Positions 9,057 to 34,341 of a stretch of DNA of 41,612 nt are shown one piece after another (position 1 is the first letter of the stretch; each line of letters opens with the position of its first letter). Below the pieces are notes generated by a model. The model made no database searches. It was not told the origin of the DNA and saw only the letters and a program-made list of their open reading frames with translations. The translations under genes and the position numbers were made by a program. The stretch comes from Candidatus Saccharimonadota bacterium (GTDB lineage: Bacteria > Patescibacteriota > Saccharimonadia > Saccharimonadales > UBA4665). Location of the stretch: contig JAICKC010000013.1 of the NCBI GenBank assembly GCA_025928155.1, positions 1 to 41,612 on the forward strand. Reading direction: 5' to 3'.

Positions 9057-10301
9057 CTATCCTAACTCAACTAGTGCCGAGTCTTTGAAGGCTCTACCCC
9101 GGCGTAGGAGCAAGCGGCCATTTTGGAAGTCAGCCGGCTCGAAGTTTTCGCGCCGCACCTTTTGCCCGTTAATGCTGACAGCGTTTTCGGTAATAAACCG
9201 GCGTGCTTCCGTATTAGAGCTAGCTAAACCACTGACGACTAGGGCTTCGGCAATGGCTCCATTGTTCGTAGCCTTGACCGCAGGAATCTCCTGGCGCAAA
9301 GCATCCAGCGCTTCTCCTTCAACGTGGGCGACACTGGCACCTTTAAGGTAGTCCGTGACTTCGGTGGCAATACGCAGCTGGTCGTCACCATGTACCAGAC
9401 GAGTGACGTTGACGGCGAGTGCAACTTGTGCCGCCCGGGCGCCGGGATTTTCGCGGTGTTGTTTCATGATTCCCTCGATTTCCTCTTTCGAAAGCAGTGT
9501 GTACACCTTGAGGTAATCTTCCACGCCAGCGTCATCGCAGTTAATCCAGAACTGGTAGAACTGGGTCGGGGTAGTTTTGGCGGGATCAAGCCAGACTGCG
9601 CCGGTTTCACTTTTGCCAAATTTTACACCTGTTGTTCTATTGACGACAAGAGGTACCGAGTAAACATGCGTTTCTACACCCTCGACGCGGCGGATCAAGT
9701 CAACACCGGTAATGCTGTTGCCCCATTGGTCCGCACCACATACTTGCAGCGTCACACCCTTTTCCCGGTACAGGTGCAAGAAATCATACCCCTGGATAAG
9801 ACTGTAGCTGAATTCGGCATAGCTGATACCCGCCCCGTCTTCGCGCAAGCGGCTCTGCACAAAATCGCGGCCGAGCATCTGACGCATCGGCACATGTTTG
9901 CCTACCTCACGTAAGAACTGCAGGTAGCCAATGTCTTTGAACCAGTCATAATTGTCAACGATTTCAAACTGTTGACCGGCAAAAACCGCTCGGTACTGCG
10001 CGGCGATAGCGGCTTTGTTGCGAGCGATCTCATCGAGGGACAACAGGTCACGCTCCTGCTTTTTGCCGTCGGGGTCGCCAATCATGCCGGTAGCGCCGCC
10101 GACCAGCAGGATAGCTTTGTGGCCATGCTCAATAAACTGGCGCACCATCATAGCAGCCGCAAGATTACCGATTTGCATACTGTCAGCGCTGGGGTCAACG
10201 CCAAAGTAAAAGGCAATCGGGTTGCCATCAAGCACCGACAGGTCTTTGAAGGTCGTTTGGTTGACGAATCCGCGCCAGGCGAGTTCTTCGGAAAGTGTCA
10301 T
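9057..10301 (-). CDS. tyrS: Tyrosyl-tRNA synthetase
   Basis: The 414-residue protein has a class I catalytic core with DPSADSMQIGNLAAA (HIGH-motif position), the tyrosine-pocket stretch CGADQWGNSITGVDLIRR, the KMSKS-type loop KFGKSE, and a C-terminal S4 RNA-binding domain (EALVVSGLASSNTEARRFI). It charges tRNA-Tyr. The usual first His of the HIGH motif is Gln here (QIGN). I chose the second of two adjacent ATGs (10301; the other is 10304). A TATACT box at 10309-10314 lies 7 nt upstream of it, implying a leaderless message, and an upstream in-frame extension to 10343 is unlikely. First gene of the tyrS-murT-gatD operon. Confidence 0.95.
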   Translation of the reverse strand: MTLSEELAWRGFVNQTTFKDLSVLDGNPIAFYFGVDPSADSMQIGNLAAAMMVRQFIEHGHKAILLVGGATGMIGDPDGKKQERDLLSLDEIARNKAAIAAQYRAVFAGQQFEIVDNYDWFKDIGYLQFLREVGKHVPMRQMLGRDFVQSRLREDGAGISYAEFSYSLIQGYDFLHLYREKGVTLQVCGADQWGNSITGVDLIRRVEGVETHVYSVPLVVNRTTGVKFGKSETGAVWLDPAKTTPTQFYQFWINCDDAGVEDYLKVYTLLSKEEIEGIMKQHRENPGARAAQVALAVNVTRLVHGDDQLRIATEVTDYLKGASVAHVEGEALDALRQEIPAVKATNNGAIAEALVVSGLASSNTEARRFITENAVSINGQKVRRENFEPADFQNGRLLLRRGRAFKDSALVELG

Positions 10302-23109: not shown

Positions 23110-23137
23110 AGTTTAGCAAAAACTTGGGCCTTGTCAA
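23110..23137 (-). promoter_or_regulatory. nusA promoter
   Basis: On the minus strand TTGACA (23132-23137) and TAAACT (23110-23115, preceded by TGC) are 16 nt apart. Transcription should begin near 23103, directly before the leader terminator. Its -35 box abuts the -35 region of the divergent U1 promoter. Confidence 0.78.
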
Positions 23138-23138
23138 C

Positions 23139-23167
23139 TATACAGATTAATATATTTGTGCTATAAT
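23139..23167 (+). promoter_or_regulatory. Promoter of unit U1
   Basis: A consensus TATAAT (23162-23167) preceded by TGC makes an extended -10 element; TATACA (23139-23144) 17 nt upstream is a fair -35 box. Predicted start is near 23174, so the transcript begins with the class I leader motif. Confidence 0.75.
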
Positions 23168-23174
23168 ATATAGG

Positions 23175-23218
23175 TTTTGTTGAGGCGCTTTGCACCTCCG
23201 AAGCACATTGACAAGTGC
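23175..23218 (+). repeat. Class I leader motif, copy 1
   Basis: TTTTGTTGAG, a hairpin closed by GAGG/CCTC, then 23 nt after the first GAG the core TTGACAAGT. Copies with the same spacing (23-24 nt) occur at 25374 and 25991. Each starts 7-11 nt after a -10 box. Confidence 0.75.
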
Positions 23219-23328
23219 AGAACCATTGTTGAACCACCCGAGGACTTATAAAAATCCTCCGGCGGTTCAACAATGTCGTTGACCAACCCGACAGGTTCGC
23301 CCTGCCAACGCTATACAGGAAGGTGCCT

Positions 23329-23709
23329 ATGAGCACTACCGTACGACCACCAACCCGGACTCGAGCCGCTAGCGCGCACGCGCACGGCCCAAAGCCCTGG
23401 GTACCGCTGGCCCTCCTCGCTCTCAACTACCTTCTCCTGAGTGGCTTGGTAGTCGCCGCTCTGACGTTGCAAAGCAGCAACGGTGTATTCCATGCCGCCG
23501 CGTGCGACATCACCACGACACCTGGCCTCACCCTTGTCCGCACGCCGGCAGGAACCCTTAACGATGTAACGGGAGATACGTTTACCCGCTACCACGCCTA
23601 CCACTTCACTGTCACTGGCAGTGGAGACGATGGACGTCTGGTCGTCACAGCCCAGCCTGCTTCCCAGCAAGAGATCGCCAGCTATCAAAACGACGCCAGC
23701 TACTGCTGA
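23329..23709 (+). CDS. Hypothetical single-pass membrane protein (U1 ORF 1)
   Basis: I do not recognise this 126-residue protein. A basic N-terminus (RPPTRTRAASAHAHGPK) precedes one membrane helix (about residues 25-47, VPLALLALNYLLLSGLVVAAL). The C-terminal 75 residues are Thr/Ser-rich, beta-type in composition, and hold two cysteines (AACDIT and the last residue), which could pair outside the cell. The ATG at 23329 follows AGGAAGG by 5 nt; an in-frame extension to 23323 is not needed. It is the first gene of a two-gene message whose leader carries the class I RNA motif. Confidence 0.65.
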   Translation: MSTTVRPPTRTRAASAHAHGPKPWVPLALLALNYLLLSGLVVAALTLQSSNGVFHAAACDITTTPGLTLVRTPAGTLNDVTGDTFTRYHAYHFTVTGSGDDGRLVVTAQPASQQEIASYQNDASYC

Positions 23710-23758
23710 CCGTCGCTCACCACCCAACCTACCGAGAATAGCAACTCTAGGGAGAGAC

Positions 23759-24226
23759 ATGCGATACCGTATCGTCCGTAACATCCCGCGTGCACTAATG
23801 ATGCTCGCCTTCGCCCTGACCGCCGTCGCCGGCGTCTTCGCCAGCGGCAATGCCCGCCAGGCACCCGCCACAGTAGCACCGGCAGCGAACGTCGGCACGA
23901 TGATTCACGCGCTTCCTGCAGCTGGCCCTGGTGGCAACCAGACAACCGACGAGCATGCCGTCTGTGGTATCCGTCACGTGACCATCGCCGGAATGAGCTT
24001 TCCTACTATCTACACCTCCGACGGGGTCGACTACCAGTTCAACTCGGACCAGTGGCAGGTCGTGCTCAAGCACCACCGCCGCGGCCTGTTCGAACTCACG
24101 ACCATGTCACCCGTCGTTCCCGGTGACCCTGGCATCCTCGTCCTGCTATGTTTCACCGCTCCGTCGATGTCCCACCACCTGAAGCACATGTGCCTGCGGA
24201 TCGCCGAACACTTCGGCGTCGGCTGA
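23759..24226 (+). CDS. Hypothetical secreted protein (U1 ORF 2)
   Basis: I do not recognise this 155-residue protein. It begins with a typical signal sequence: MRYRIVRNIPR, then ALMMLAFALTAVAGVFASG with an ASG-N-A type cleavage site near residue 30. An Ala/Pro-rich linker (about 32-60) follows, then a compact domain with three Cys (HAVCG, LLCFT, HMCLR) and several aromatic/His clusters (VVLKHHRRG, MSHHLKHMC). The His/Cys content may indicate metal binding, but no family is evident. AGGGAGAG lies 1-2 nt before the ATG. It is 49 nt downstream of ORF 1 in the same unit. Confidence 0.65.
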   Translation: MRYRIVRNIPRALMMLAFALTAVAGVFASGNARQAPATVAPAANVGTMIHALPAAGPGGNQTTDEHAVCGIRHVTIAGMSFPTIYTSDGVDYQFNSDQWQVVLKHHRRGLFELTTMSPVVPGDPGILVLLCFTAPSMSHHLKHMCLRIAEHFGVG

Positions 24227-24252
24227 TCAACGAACTCGAAAATGGCACCCGA

Positions 24253-24287
24253 CCTGGGGCGCGGCGTCAGCCGACCCGCGCCCCAGG
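24253..24287 (+). repeat. GC-rich 11-bp hairpin in U1 trailer
   Basis: CCTGGGGCGCG (24253-24263) and CGCGCCCCAGG (24277-24287) are exact reverse complements; the loop contains a further GGC/GCC pair. No U-tract follows, so it is probably a structural trailer element and not a simple terminator. Confidence 0.7.
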
Positions 24288-24321
24288 CGTCCATTGGCCT
24301 TTCAGCCATCAACCTTCTGCA

Positions 24322-24362
24322 CTTGTCGTTCAACCCTGCAGTTTTGTCTAAAAACTTCAGAG
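24322..24362 (+). repeat. Class I trailer motif (D element), copy in U1
   Basis: CTTGTC, then GTTC..CCCTGCAGTTTTGTC, then TAAAAACTTCAGAG. It aligns with copies at 25893-25940 and 26485-26534; the A-run lies 20-25 nt after the pairing arm in each, as it also does in U6. Confidence 0.7.
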
Positions 24363-24381
24363 TCGACCTGACAATATAGCC

Positions 24382-24409
24382 TTTACATTTTTTATGGCAC
24401 TCTTATAAT
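24382..24409 (+). promoter_or_regulatory. Promoter of unit U2
   Basis: TTTACA (24382-24387) and TATAAT (24404-24409) with a 16-nt spacer. Predicted start near 24416. Confidence 0.8.
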
Positions 24410-24525
24410 TTGCGGCGGCATGTTTACTGCATGTACCGGTAACTGGCAGAGGACAAGGGGCACTCCCCCTTCCGGAAAACGGTCGCCCGAGCAATCTCGG
24501 CTGACTCGAGCAAATCGGAGGTACC

Positions 24526-24690
24526 ATGAAAGGTATAGTTCGTAATACGGGGCATTCGTGTGCCTGGCACAACCCCCCGCACTACGCTCTGTCGTGGTTC
24601 TTGAACTTCAGAGCTAGGAAATGCTCTGGGTGTGGCAAGCATTTCGTCAAGCGCAAAATCCCACCGGGCGCGAAGTTCTTCATTTCGTAA
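24526..24690 (+). CDS. CAWH-type zinc-ribbon small protein (U2 ORF)
   Basis: A 54-residue basic protein. Residues 12-15 read CAWH and residues 33-36 CSGC, followed by GKHFVKRK. The C-x2-H plus C-x2-C spacing is that of a small zinc ribbon. It is a paralogue of the 49-residue product of U3: both have CAWH, about 16-20 residues, KC-x2-CG-x2-F-x2-RK. The ATG follows GGAGG by 4 nt, an ideal ribosome site. The basic tail suggests binding to nucleic acid, possibly its own structured RNA; that is speculation. No known family is recognised. Confidence 0.72.
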   Translation: MKGIVRNTGHSCAWHNPPHYALSWFLNFRARKCSGCGKHFVKRKIPPGAKFFIS

Positions 24691-24737
24691 CCTCACCCCT
24701 GGACAACCTCCAGCCAGTTCCCTACTTGTAGTAAACT

Positions 24738-24840
24738 GACGCAGCCCTAATAGCGTCAAAACGGAGCGCTGCCTGGCGTATTGTGAGATTTTGGGGCGTA
24801 AAGCCAACGAAACCCCTCACCCTAACGCCAGACAGCCTCC
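24738..24840 (+). ncRNA. Structured 3' domain, copy A
   Basis: Begins with a GACGC/GCGTC hairpin (24738-24742, 24752-24756), then AAAACGGAG and a long stem: CTGCCTGGCGT (24769-24779) with the matching 3' arm ending CTCC at 24840, with one C-A mismatch. Inside are GTGA/TCAC and GGGG/CCCC stems and the conserved GCCAACGAAACC. Copy B (25231-25335) shares most of this sequence and fold. The strand assignment follows the unit it ends. Confidence 0.72.
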
Positions 24841-24894
24841 ACCCTACATCATTTAGAACGTTTGAGCTTTTACTTATAACTTGTGTTTTTGTGC

Positions 24895-24923
24895 TTTACA
24901 TTGTAAAATATCAGTAATATACT
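24895..24923 (+). promoter_or_regulatory. Promoter of unit U3
   Basis: TTTACA (24895-24900) and TATACT (24918-24923) with exactly 17 nt between. Predicted start near 24930. Confidence 0.8.
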
Positions 24924-25030
24924 CTATTGTGGCAAGTCTGCTGTACGTGCCCTGTAGTTGAAAGATCGCACTCCCGGTCCAGAAAATCTCATGGACCTCT
25001 TACGAAATCAGAAGTCGTCAAGGAGAAGCT

Positions 25031-25180
25031 ATGCCCAAACAGCAAAAGCGCGGCGTTACTTGTGCCTGGCACCAGGTGTCATTCATGAAGCGGACGCTAA
25101 GCCCCACCGGAGAGAAGTGCCCATCATGTGGCAGGCGATTTAAGCTCCGCAAATACAAGCCGGAGCCGAAGTCTCGCTAG
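25031..25180 (+). CDS. CAWH-type zinc-ribbon small protein (U3 ORF)
   Basis: A 49-residue, strongly basic protein. CAWH at residues 11-14 and CPSC at 30-33 give a C-x2-H ... C-x2-C zinc site, followed by GRRFKLRKYK. It is a paralogue of the U2 product, with the same ligand pattern and the same RK-rich exit. AGGAGAAGCT precedes the ATG, giving a GGAG ribosome site with a 5-nt gap; the same GGAGAAGCTA string precedes the U6 start at 31210. Function unknown; nucleic-acid binding is likely from charge and fold type. Confidence 0.72.
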   Translation: MPKQQKRGVTCAWHQVSFMKRTLSPTGEKCPSCGRRFKLRKYKPEPKSR

Positions 25181-25230
25181 TCACCTGTAATTCTCTTCAC
25201 CCAGCACCCAAACCACGTACAGCAGACACT

Positions 25231-25335
25231 GACGCGGCCTCACTAGCGTCAAAACGGAGCGCTGCCTGGCGTATTGTGATCAATTTTGTCGGCGCACGCC
25301 AACGAAACCACCCACAACAACGCCAGGCAGCCTCC
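25231..25335 (+). ncRNA. Structured 3' domain, copy B
   Basis: GACGC/GCGTC hairpin (25231-25235, 25246-25250), then AAAACGGAG and a perfect stem of GCTGCCTGGCGT (25261-25272) with CGCCAGGCAGC near 25321-25331, closed by GGAG/CTCC. Inner stems are TTGTG/CACAA and GGCG/CGCC before the conserved AACGAAACC. Compared with copy A the inner stems use different bases but remain paired. Confidence 0.75.
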
Positions 25336-25353
25336 ACATTACTTACAGATAGT

Positions 25354-25364
25354 TATACTATAAT
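25354..25364 (+). promoter_or_regulatory. -10 region of unit U4
   Basis: TATACT (25354-25359) overlaps TATAAT (25359-25364). No good -35 box is visible at the right spacing. The class I leader motif starts 9 nt after the second -10 box. Confidence 0.55.
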
Positions 25365-25373
25365 TGCACTGGC

Positions 25374-25416
25374 TTTTGTTGAGCTTCTGCTCTGTTAGTC
25401 GGCACCTTGACAAGTA
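25374..25416 (+). repeat. Class I leader motif, copy 2
   Basis: TTTTGTTGAG, with hairpin GAGC-TTCT-GCTC, then TTGACAAGT 23 nt after the first GAG. Aligned copies are at 23175 and 25991. Confidence 0.78.
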
Positions 25417-25573
25417 GACAGCACAGGCTTGTGATGGGTTACAGATGCTTGCAGAGCGTCAGCATCCCATCGCAAGCGTCAAGAGGGCAAAGCCCAACGC
25501 TCAAACTGAGCGACCGACACGCCACGATCCGTAGCAACAAAGGATGGGAACGGTTCGTGAAATAGGAGTCACT

Positions 25574-25762
25574 ATGAGCAGATACAGGCAACGACCCGGC
25601 AAGGTCGTTAGTCCGAAGGCCGAGAAGGTGCGTATGCTTACCAATCTGCTGAAGAAGCGAAGGTTCTCGTGCGGCCATACGGCCTTCAGCATCGGCGGCA
25701 TCTGCCCGAAGTGCAAAGGCGAAGGCCGCGGGAGGGGTATAGAAATCCGTAGCAAGAAGTAA
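25574..25762 (+). CDS. CGH-type zinc-ribbon small protein (U4 ORF)
   Basis: A 62-residue protein rich in Arg and Lys. After a basic 30-residue N-terminus comes RRFSCGHTAFS followed by ICPKCKGEG, giving zinc ligands C33, H35, C44 and C47, then GRGRGIEIRSKK. The product of U5 shares RR-[FY]-SCGH-x-A-[FW]-S, CP-x-C and the G-x-G...I-x-I ending, so the two are paralogues. AGGAG lies 5 nt before the ATG; an upstream in-frame extension lacks a ribosome site. It differs from the CAWH pair of U2/U3 in ligand spacing. Function unknown. Confidence 0.72.
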   Translation: MSRYRQRPGKVVSPKAEKVRMLTNLLKKRRFSCGHTAFSIGGICPKCKGEGRGRGIEIRSKK

Positions 25763-25809
25763 TAGGCCAACCCCCAATCATTTTTACCCCTTCGCCTTTA
25801 CGAACGAGA

Positions 25810-25856
25810 CCTGGCAGCCTGGCGAATGAGACCATGAAAAATGTTATGCTGCCAGG
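25810..25856 (+). repeat. 9-bp hairpin in U4 trailer
   Basis: CCTGGCAGC (25810-25818) and GCTGCCAGG (25848-25856) are exact reverse complements around a 29-nt loop. The arm sequence resembles the long stem of domains A and B (CTGCCTGGCG). Confidence 0.65.
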
Positions 25857-25892
25857 CACACTACTCCCCTCACCCTTATGTCTCCTCTGTCA

Positions 25893-25940
25893 CTTGTCAT
25901 CTCTCCCTTGGAGTATTGCTCAAAAAACCGCAGAGGTGAG
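25893..25940 (+). repeat. Class I trailer motif (D element), copy in U4
   Basis: CTTGTCAT, CCCTTG, an AAAAAAC run and GCAGAGGTGAG. About three quarters of its bases match the copy at 26485-26534. Confidence 0.72.
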
Positions 25941-25951
25941 TTGGGTATCGA

Positions 25952-25980
25952 TTGTATTATTCTGCAAAAGAGTATATATT
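25952..25980 (+). promoter_or_regulatory. Possible promoter of unit U5
   Basis: TATATT (25975-25980) with TTGTAT (25952-25957) 17 nt upstream. The -35 box is weak (3 of 6). It starts 12 nt after the U4 D element. Confidence 0.5.
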
Positions 25981-25990
25981 ATCGTTGACT

Positions 25991-26033
25991 ATTGTTGAGT
26001 TCATGCTCCAATAAGTCGCTCCCTTGACAAGTC
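25991..26033 (+). repeat. Class I leader motif, copy 3
   Basis: ATTGTTGAG, with hairpin GAGT-TCAT-GCTC, then TTGACAAGT 24 nt after the first GAG. Spacing matches copies 1 and 2 within one base. Confidence 0.75.
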
Positions 26034-26191
26034 GGCGGGCGCGACCGAGTGATAGTTTGTACTGTGCTGCAAAGCGCCGGAAACTCGTCACTAGTGTCGG
26101 GAAAGTTACACCTACCGAAACGCGCTTGGTGCGGTCTTTCATGGCTCAACATACAACTGGGCACACGCCCCCAAGAAGGAAAGGCACGGTA

Positions 26192-26368
26192 GTGTCATCA
26201 AAGAAGAAGCCCTACAGGGTCAAGAAGAATGCGCCTAAAAAGGAGAGCAAGCCCTCAACGGGCATCCTGATGTGGCGCAGATACAGCTGCGGTCATCGGG
26301 CATGGAGCGCCAGCAAGGTGTGCCCGAACTGCCGAGGCCTTGGCAGCGGCATCCAAATCCATAAGTAG
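26192..26368 (+). CDS. CGH-type zinc-ribbon small protein (U5 ORF)
   Basis: A 58-residue basic protein with RRYSCGHRAWS and VCPNCRGLGSG, i.e. zinc ligands C33, H35, C44 and C47, and ending IQIHK. I place the start at a GTG (26192): GAAGGAAAGG lies 7 nt upstream, and this start puts the first zinc-ligand Cys at residue 33, exactly as in the U4 paralogue. The ATG at 26141 in the same frame lacks a ribosome site. N-terminal 25 residues are Lys/Pro-rich (KKKPYRVKKNAPKKESK). Function unknown; nucleic-acid binding is likely. Confidence 0.7.
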   Translation: MSSKKKPYRVKKNAPKKESKPSTGILMWRRYSCGHRAWSASKVCPNCRGLGSGIQIHK

Positions 26369-26484
26369 ATCAGCGCCGCGCTGAGTTAGTTGCGACATGA
26401 TGAGCACCAGCGCGAGTCGGTTTGAGGAAGATGTCACGCGCCCAGCTATGGCCGTTACCTTCAAAACCCTTTTCCTACTCGCCG

Positions 26485-26534
26485 CTTGTCATGTTCGCCC
26501 TTGCTGTTTTGCCATAAAAAACTGTAGAGGTGAG
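26485..26534 (+). repeat. Class I trailer motif (D element), copy in U5
   Basis: CTTGTCAT, GTTCGCCCTTG, GTTTTGCC, an AAAAAAC run and GTAGAGGTGAG. Aligns with copies at 24322 and 25893. Confidence 0.72.
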
Positions 26535-26541
26535 CAGTTTT
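26518..26541 (+). terminator. Probable terminator of unit U5
   Basis: AAAACTG (26518-26524) pairs with CAGTTTT (26535-26541) around a 10-nt loop; the 3' arm itself supplies the U-run. It overlaps the D element, as the U6 terminator does, and ends 9 nt before the pepN -10 box. Confidence 0.55.
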
Positions 26542-32733: not shown

Positions 32734-34341
32734 TTACCCGACCACGCGGTAGACTTCTTCGAGCGTGGTCTGGCCGGCACAGACCTTGAGGATGCCGTCC
32801 TGAAGCATTGTGCGCATACCGCTTTTGGCAGCAGCAGTTTCAATATCCTGAGCTGACAGAATGTTCGTGGGATGTTCGAGCAAACGGCGGATCTCGCCGG
32901 TCATACGGAACTGTTCGCGAATGGCTAGTTGCCCCTGGAAGCCGTATGGATTTTCGGCCGATGCACCGGGCCTAAAGAACTTGGTCTGAGTCAAATCCGG
33001 CCGAGGGATAGCCTCAGGCAGTGTATTGAGCACTTGTTGTATTTTCAACAGCTCTGCTTCTATGGGCTGGTACGGCTGCTTGCACTTGTCGTCGAGCTTG
33101 CGGATAAGGCGTTGCGCCATCACCAGGCGGATAGCCGACACGAAGAGCGGGTTCTGGCCAATAATGTCCATGAGTCGCGCGAGTGCTTCGGCAGCGCTAC
33201 CAGCGTGGTAGGTGCTGAGTACGAGATGCCCTGTCAGGCTGGCTTGCAGCGCCGTTTTGGCAGTGTCGTTGTCGCGAATCTCGCCAACCATGACGATGTC
33301 GGGATCAAGCCGAAGCGTCGCGCGTAGCTTATTGGCAAAGCTGGCGTCCTCACCATGCTCGGTACTGTGTACCGAAATCTGTGTAATGCCGGGGAATTGA
33401 TACTCGACGGGATCTTCAATGGTAATGATTTTGCGCTCATCGCTTTTAAGCGAGTTCAGGACGGAATACAGCGTAGTGGTTTTGCCGGAACCGGTCGGGC
33501 CGACAACCATTACCAGACCGCTGGGTTTGGCGATAATCTCATCCAGCACGGCGCGTTCCTCTTGGCTTAAGCCTAGCCGATCAAGGTTATATTTGCCCGC
33601 GTCCATGTTGAACAAACGCATCACCACGTCCATGCCGTGGATGGTCGGCACGGTTTCCAGACGGACATTAACATCTACTTGAGTGCCGTCGGCCATGGCA
33701 GCTCTTTGGCTGATATGCCCTTGTTGAGCCTCATCCGCAACAGTGGAAACGTTGCCGGCACTGGCGATTGCACCGATGAGCACGCGGTACTTTTCGGGCT
33801 GCAAGAATGCGATGGCGTGCAACACCCCATCGATGCGGAAACGAACCCGGACATCATGATCCTGCGTCTCGATGTGGATGTCGCTAGCATTCAGGCGATG
33901 CGCCTGACTGACCAAATAGGCCAGCATGTCGTCCGCGCGTACCTGGCTGAGCGTGGATGACACTTGCTGCACCAGGTCGGTAGTACCCGCGTTAGCGATG
34001 CTAATATCTTGGTATTCAACCTTTGGCGGCGGATTATAGAGAAGCATGTATTCGCGGTACCCTGCTTCAGCTATCAGGGTAAAGGAGACACGCTGGTCGT
34101 TGAAACGCTGGCGCAGCTGGTTCATGGTCTGCTGCGAGGTAGTGGTCGTAATGCCAAAAAGTATATTGCTGCGGTCCGCTTGAATAGGAACAATGCGCAA
34201 GCGCTGCATTTCATCCACGCTCAAGATATCTTTGAATAGCGGCTTGTCGAGCAGTAGCGAGGTATCAGTATACGACACCTGGAGAATTTGGGCGCGGCGC
34301 TCGGTAGCCAGTTCCTCATCGCGCCTTGCATCTTGTGACAT
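32734..34341 (-). CDS. Type II secretion / type IV pilus assembly ATPase (GspE/PilB family)
   Basis: The 535-residue protein has an N-terminal T2SSE-N-like domain, then the hexameric ATPase core with ASDIHIE, VVGPTGSGKTTTLYSVL (Walker A), TIEDPVEY (Asp box), LRLDPDIVMVGEIRD (Walker B) and LSTYHAGSA (His box). It powers pilus extension or pseudopilus assembly. The zinc-binding four-Cys insert typical of PilB/GspE (two CxxC pairs) is worn down to a single Cys (DDKCKQPY); the second pair region reads FFRPGASAENPYGFQG. No other pilus gene is in the window, so partners must be encoded elsewhere. Confidence 0.93.
   Translation of the reverse strand: MSQDARRDEELATERRAQILQVSYTDTSLLLDKPLFKDILSVDEMQRLRIVPIQADRSNILFGITTTTSQQTMNQLRQRFNDQRVSFTLIAEAGYREYMLLYNPPPKVEYQDISIANAGTTDLVQQVSSTLSQVRADDMLAYLVSQAHRLNASDIHIETQDHDVRVRFRIDGVLHAIAFLQPEKYRVLIGAIASAGNVSTVADEAQQGHISQRAAMADGTQVDVNVRLETVPTIHGMDVVMRLFNMDAGKYNLDRLGLSQEERAVLDEIIAKPSGLVMVVGPTGSGKTTTLYSVLNSLKSDERKIITIEDPVEYQFPGITQISVHSTEHGEDASFANKLRATLRLDPDIVMVGEIRDNDTAKTALQASLTGHLVLSTYHAGSAAEALARLMDIIGQNPLFVSAIRLVMAQRLIRKLDDKCKQPYQPIEAELLKIQQVLNTLPEAIPRPDLTQTKFFRPGASAENPYGFQGQLAIREQFRMTGEIRRLLEHPTNILSAQDIETAAAKSGMRTMLQDGILKVCAGQTTLEEVYRVVG

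Follow-up and report, generated by a model that had tools for sequence, protein, structure and literature searches.

What is the purpose of five short units, each with a leader complementary to its own trailer, that stand head to tail between two conserved genes of Candidatus Saccharimonadota bacterium (assembly GCA_025928155.1)? The window analysed here, i.e. the whole stretch of 41,612 nucleotides from contig JAICKC010000013.1, carries these units (U1 to U5) on its forward strand as an island (23145-26540) inserted between the divergent genes nusA and pepN. In 24 of the 30 related loci examined nusA is likewise divergent to pepN. The gap between both genes measures 244 and 308 nt in two congeners versus about 3.5 kb here, and homology of the 5' flank to a congener ends near 23120, so the island is a lineage-specific insertion of roughly 3.3 kb. 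In other relatives whose nusA and pepN are farther apart, the space is taken up by ordinary genes or plain spacer and contains no such units.

Layout of the five units

Each unit contains one or two small ORFs according to the ORF list, and for each a -10-like box is seen in the sequence, both as the first-pass annotation had described. A promoter scan supplied a -35 partner for three of the five boxes (U1, U2, U3). All five arm pairs lie where the annotation had placed them, with the complementarity it gave, and their fixed position was confirmed as well: about 36 nt from the start site in U1, U4 and U5 (class I) and about 6 nt in U2 and U3 (class II). A scan of the units for intrinsic terminators found none after the trailers.

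In U1 the -10 box TATAAT (23162-23167) is preceded by a -35-like TATACA at a spacer of 17. The leader arm GACAAGTGCAGAA (23210-23222), with a leader hairpin directly inside it (23224-23275), matches the trailer arm TTCTGCACTTGTC (24315-24327) perfectly over 13 nt. Two ORFs without an assigned family lie in between; ORF1 (23329-23709, 126 aa) likely has one N-terminal membrane helix, and ORF2 (23762-24226, 154 aa) has a signal-like N terminus, both as judged by eye. The -10 box of U2 (TATAAT, 24404-24409; -35 TTTACA, spacer 16) is followed by a leader arm (24422-24452) that pairs with the trailer arm (24707-24736) over 14 nt with one G-U and one mismatch, and then over 7 and 4 more pairs, the best pairing being in the first 14 nt. 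The enclosed ORF (24526-24690) encodes a basic, zinc-ribbon-like protein of 54 aa (CxWH...CxxC). Behind it a class II 3' element of two hairpins (24735-24842) recurs in U3, and its second hairpin recurs once on another contig, C18. U3 has the -10 box TATACT (24918-24923), arms of 14 nt that pair perfectly (24936-24949 with 25214-25227), an ORF for a basic, zinc-ribbon-like protein of 49 aa (25031-25180) and its own class II 3' element (25228-25337).

The -10 regions of the last two units were read from the sequence, TATACTATAAT (25353-25363) in U4 and TATATTAT (25975-25982) in U5. The U4 arms (25408-25421 with 25887-25899) form 13 pairs with one bulge, not significant alone, around an ORF for a basic, zinc-ribbon-like protein of 62 aa (25574-25762; CGH...CxxC). 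In U5 the arms form 12 pairs with one bulge (26025-26037 with 26480-26491), and the ORF (26141-26368), again for a basic, zinc-ribbon-like protein (75 aa), starts at an ATG without a clear ribosome site before it.

A conserved long hairpin is common to three zinc-ribbon units (window 24762-24840 and 25255-25335; L009 1951-2022); its inner part carries GGCGTATTGT and AAACC without variation. This class II hairpin may be a separate RNA element in itself.

Leader-trailer pairing and compensatory change

Complementary arms could be a matter of chance or a by-product of structured short RNAs, the class I arms deriving from one duplicated ancestral unit. The best complementary segment between leader (start site to ATG) and trailer (from the stop to where the arm region ends) was scored against Markov shuffles of both sequences. 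U2 and U3 stand out with p ~0.0015 each, which argues against chance, and U1 is modest (p 0.015). U4 (p 0.21) and U5 (p ~0.075-0.08) fall inside the shuffle range as a chance origin would predict, neither being exceptional alone; moreover, a different leader-trailer segment outscores the claimed arm of U5, so that the p value of this unit says nothing about the claimed arm. For the five units combined Fisher's p is 5e-6, and the true assignment of leaders to trailers yields the highest pairing sum of 120 permutations, beating all 119 re-pairings. Contiguous complementarity beyond chance is thus found in U2, in U3 and in the five units taken together, and not in U4 or U5 alone. A cruder test, on the helix length in minimum free energy folds, gives weaker support: shuffles matched the observed value in 20, 4, 2 and 6 of 150 cases for U2, U3, U4 and U5, respectively. 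RNAduplex energies were dropped as a measure of the arms; they are uninformative because they grow with length.

A scan for inverted pairs with partners 150-1400 nt apart, run on a sample of ~400 kb from the same genome, also speaks against chance: the island holds four where 0.3 are expected, including the arm pairs of U1 and U3, and hardly any turn up in the sample's other long gaps, most of which have none. On the other side, a 13-nt inverted pair also occurs within ordinary coding sequence (33948-34223).

The best evidence for maintained pairing comes from a comparison that was absent from the first-pass annotation. U2 and U3 are duplicates, with related zinc-ribbon-like proteins and 3' elements that have a 110-nt block in common at 84%. 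Between the arms of the two units there are five differences in the leader and six in the trailer; four of these changes in the 14-bp helices are two-sided and compensatory, Watson-Crick pairs being kept. Under a simple model, random placement of the trailer changes restores an equal number of pairs with a probability of ~0.0008. All covariation considered here is between paralogues within one genome. The compensatory changes between U2 and U3 speak against a by-product of structured RNAs.

For class I the annotation had gone further than the data allow. It stated that the bases beyond the common core are matched only by each unit's own trailer, and read this as compensatory change; in fact, once G-U and one bulge are allowed, the U4 trailer can also form 13 bp with the leader of U1 and 14 bp, as many as U5's own trailer, with that of U5. 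Because class I arms cross-pair, as descent from one duplicated unit would have it, the proposed compensatory change there comes down to three paralogues and a shared core of 7-8 nt.

The arms might also be inverted repeats at the level of DNA, belonging to cassettes that move or recombine, with the same ends (U1, U4, U5) around unrelated ORFs. The island being a lineage-specific insertion between nusA and pepN fits such cassettes, and so do the class I ends in U1, which carry an unrelated ORF pair. Yet the arms lie within the units and vary from one to the next, the pairing in U2 contains a G-U step, and neither terminal repeats at unit edges nor, among the ORFs of the island, a transposase, integrase or other recombinase was seen. 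We regard a cassette origin as improbable.

Related units elsewhere in the genome

Searches with the zinc-ribbon alignments across 295 genomes of the class gave convincing matches in the present genome only; in related genomes, these alignments and a covariance model built on the class II trailer otherwise returned only weak or stop-interrupted matches. The small basic family likewise had no convincing relative in the related genomes searched, and scans of GTDB contigs with the U3 and U1-ORF2 proteins gave no matches. A single match of the U5 protein among viral contigs, a short cysteine motif within a 169-aa ORF that belongs to a phage-like structural region, was judged to be chance.

Contig C18 (L018) of the same genome carries several more small-gene units, with CxWH/CxxC proteins, basic proteins sharing an SPQA motif and other K/R-rich ORFs. 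One of them, C18b (L018 8512-9245), is an independent unit with a stronger leader-trailer pair (p ~0.001), formed by L018 8586-8616 with 9197-9223; in the inner part of this pair, GGAGAGG partly coincides with the ribosome site and is complementary to CCTCTCC of the trailer. A closing pair is lacking in six of the seven C18 units run through the shuffle test, with boundaries set by eye. End closure is therefore not universal among such units.

Small basic ORFs, every one of them accompanied by a ribosome site and strong hairpins, form further rows on both strands at L018 3780-7050, 8140-9280 and 11206-13030; a sample of ~31% of the genome showed essentially no such rows outside C18 and the island in the window. 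Three near-identical long hairpins (CATACTACTTC...GAAGTAGTATG; L018 3793-3866, 4361-4437 and 5585-5657) mark the 3' ends of minus-strand units; one precedes a T run, and they resemble repeated terminators. The SPQA-motif proteins (54-62 aa) are encoded on the minus strand at L018 6519-6692, 6734-6922 and 11568-11732, and outside the present genome this family gave weak matches only.

Weighing the absence of arms from most C18 units, the cross-pairing of class I and the values for U4 and U5 against the strong pairs of U2, U3 and C18b, we consider chance or a by-product a rather doubtful account of the arms as a whole. The data support small ORFs enclosed by a closing helix in U2, U3 and C18b. 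The evidence for U1 is suggestive; a helix in U4 and U5 is weakly indicated, through homology only.

Predicted folding and comparison with known mRNAs

In folds of the full-length units the claimed closing helix is predicted to dominate, its mean probability being 0.84-1.00 for U1-U5 and 0.63 for C18b. If the trailer arm is kept unpaired, the fold loses 5 to 16 kcal/mol in U1-U5 and 17.5 in C18b. Truncation of the trailer shifts the predicted accessibility of the ribosome site by at most 0.06 in U1-U5, which points away from a translation switch; such a model is not supported by these predictions.

The first-pass annotation, which had proposed an Rfam search, knew of no described RNA class of this form. 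At the gathering threshold Rfam indeed names no family in the island, a single tRNA being the sole match in the window. As to its kind, however, the arrangement is not new: pairing of 5'UTR and 3'UTR inside one bacterial mRNA is described for hbs (14 nt), icaR, RNAIII/hld, hok and aapA (PMC7821165, PMC3868564, PMC6733600).

The design of hok/Sok and aapA/IsoA is similar in several respects, comprising compact small-ORF mRNAs, a covarying 5'-3' closing helix and several copies per genome (PMC6733600). Fold-back control of this type would keep the closed full-length mRNA silent until 3' trimming opens it, perhaps with an antisense RNA. In line with this, a second leader segment of C18b, GGAGAGG over the ribosome site, can pair with CCTCTCC of the trailer, and minus-strand promoter-like sites are found just downstream of the U1, U3-start/U2 and U4 trailers. 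These sites are weak, however, and expected in AT-rich gaps; no antisense RNA is known. Nor is there a hydrophobic toxin in U2-U5, four of the six proteins being basic, Cys/His zinc-ribbon-like and not hydrophobic, while the U1 ORFs have membrane-like segments. In addition, the ribosome sites of U1-U5 are predicted to be almost equally accessible with and without the closing helix. We consider fold-back control unlikely here.

The icaR mRNA of S. aureus also pairs its leader with its 3'UTR (PMC3868564), using an anti-Shine-Dalgarno motif, UCCCCUG. In contrast, the arms here are far upstream of the ribosome site, and masking of the Shine-Dalgarno sequence by the 3'UTR is not seen in the predicted accessibility (the change of at most 0.06). 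Since no masking of the ribosome site by the helix is predicted, both the hok/aapA-like lock and the icaR-like mechanism are less favoured than a clamp like that of B. subtilis hbs.

In hbs, as stated in PMC7821165, a 14-nt interaction of 5'UTR and 3'UTR protects against RNase Y. In common with the present units it has a 14-nt leader-trailer helix in one short mRNA for a small basic protein. The difference is that here a row of unrelated lineage-specific genes is concerned, for which protection from nucleases is only proposed. In this reading each unit would be a short transcript that codes for a small protein specific to the lineage, i.e. four basic zinc-ribbon-like proteins and, from U1, two membrane- or secreted-like proteins. 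The 5' leader would pair with its own 3' trailer and clamp the transcript shut, hairpins flanking the clamp on both sides, and the clamp would mainly guard the transcript ends and time decay. We infer transcription, the true 3' ends and any effect on stability, and we put forward mRNAs with a 5'-3' UTR clamp that protects ends or times decay as the favoured but tentative reading, with a substantial chance of being wrong. The genome encodes RNase III and an RNase J-type nuclease, the latter found with a search model that is broad according to a control; their action is something the closing helix could block or invite. It is conceivable, and very improbable, that the tiny basic zinc-ribbon-like proteins bind their own end-closed transcripts as lineage-specific, self-regulating RNA-protein units.

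To our knowledge, 5'-to-3' end closure is known from only a few bacterial mRNAs. The end closure proposed here extends a known principle; support for the pairing is good in two or three of the genes and poor in the rest. A row of end-closed units in one small genome, together with compensatory change between duplicates, would suggest that the device is reusable as a standard design for short mRNAs, and the row offers a clean system for testing what closure does. End closure could also help to explain how very small orphan genes acquire stable messages.
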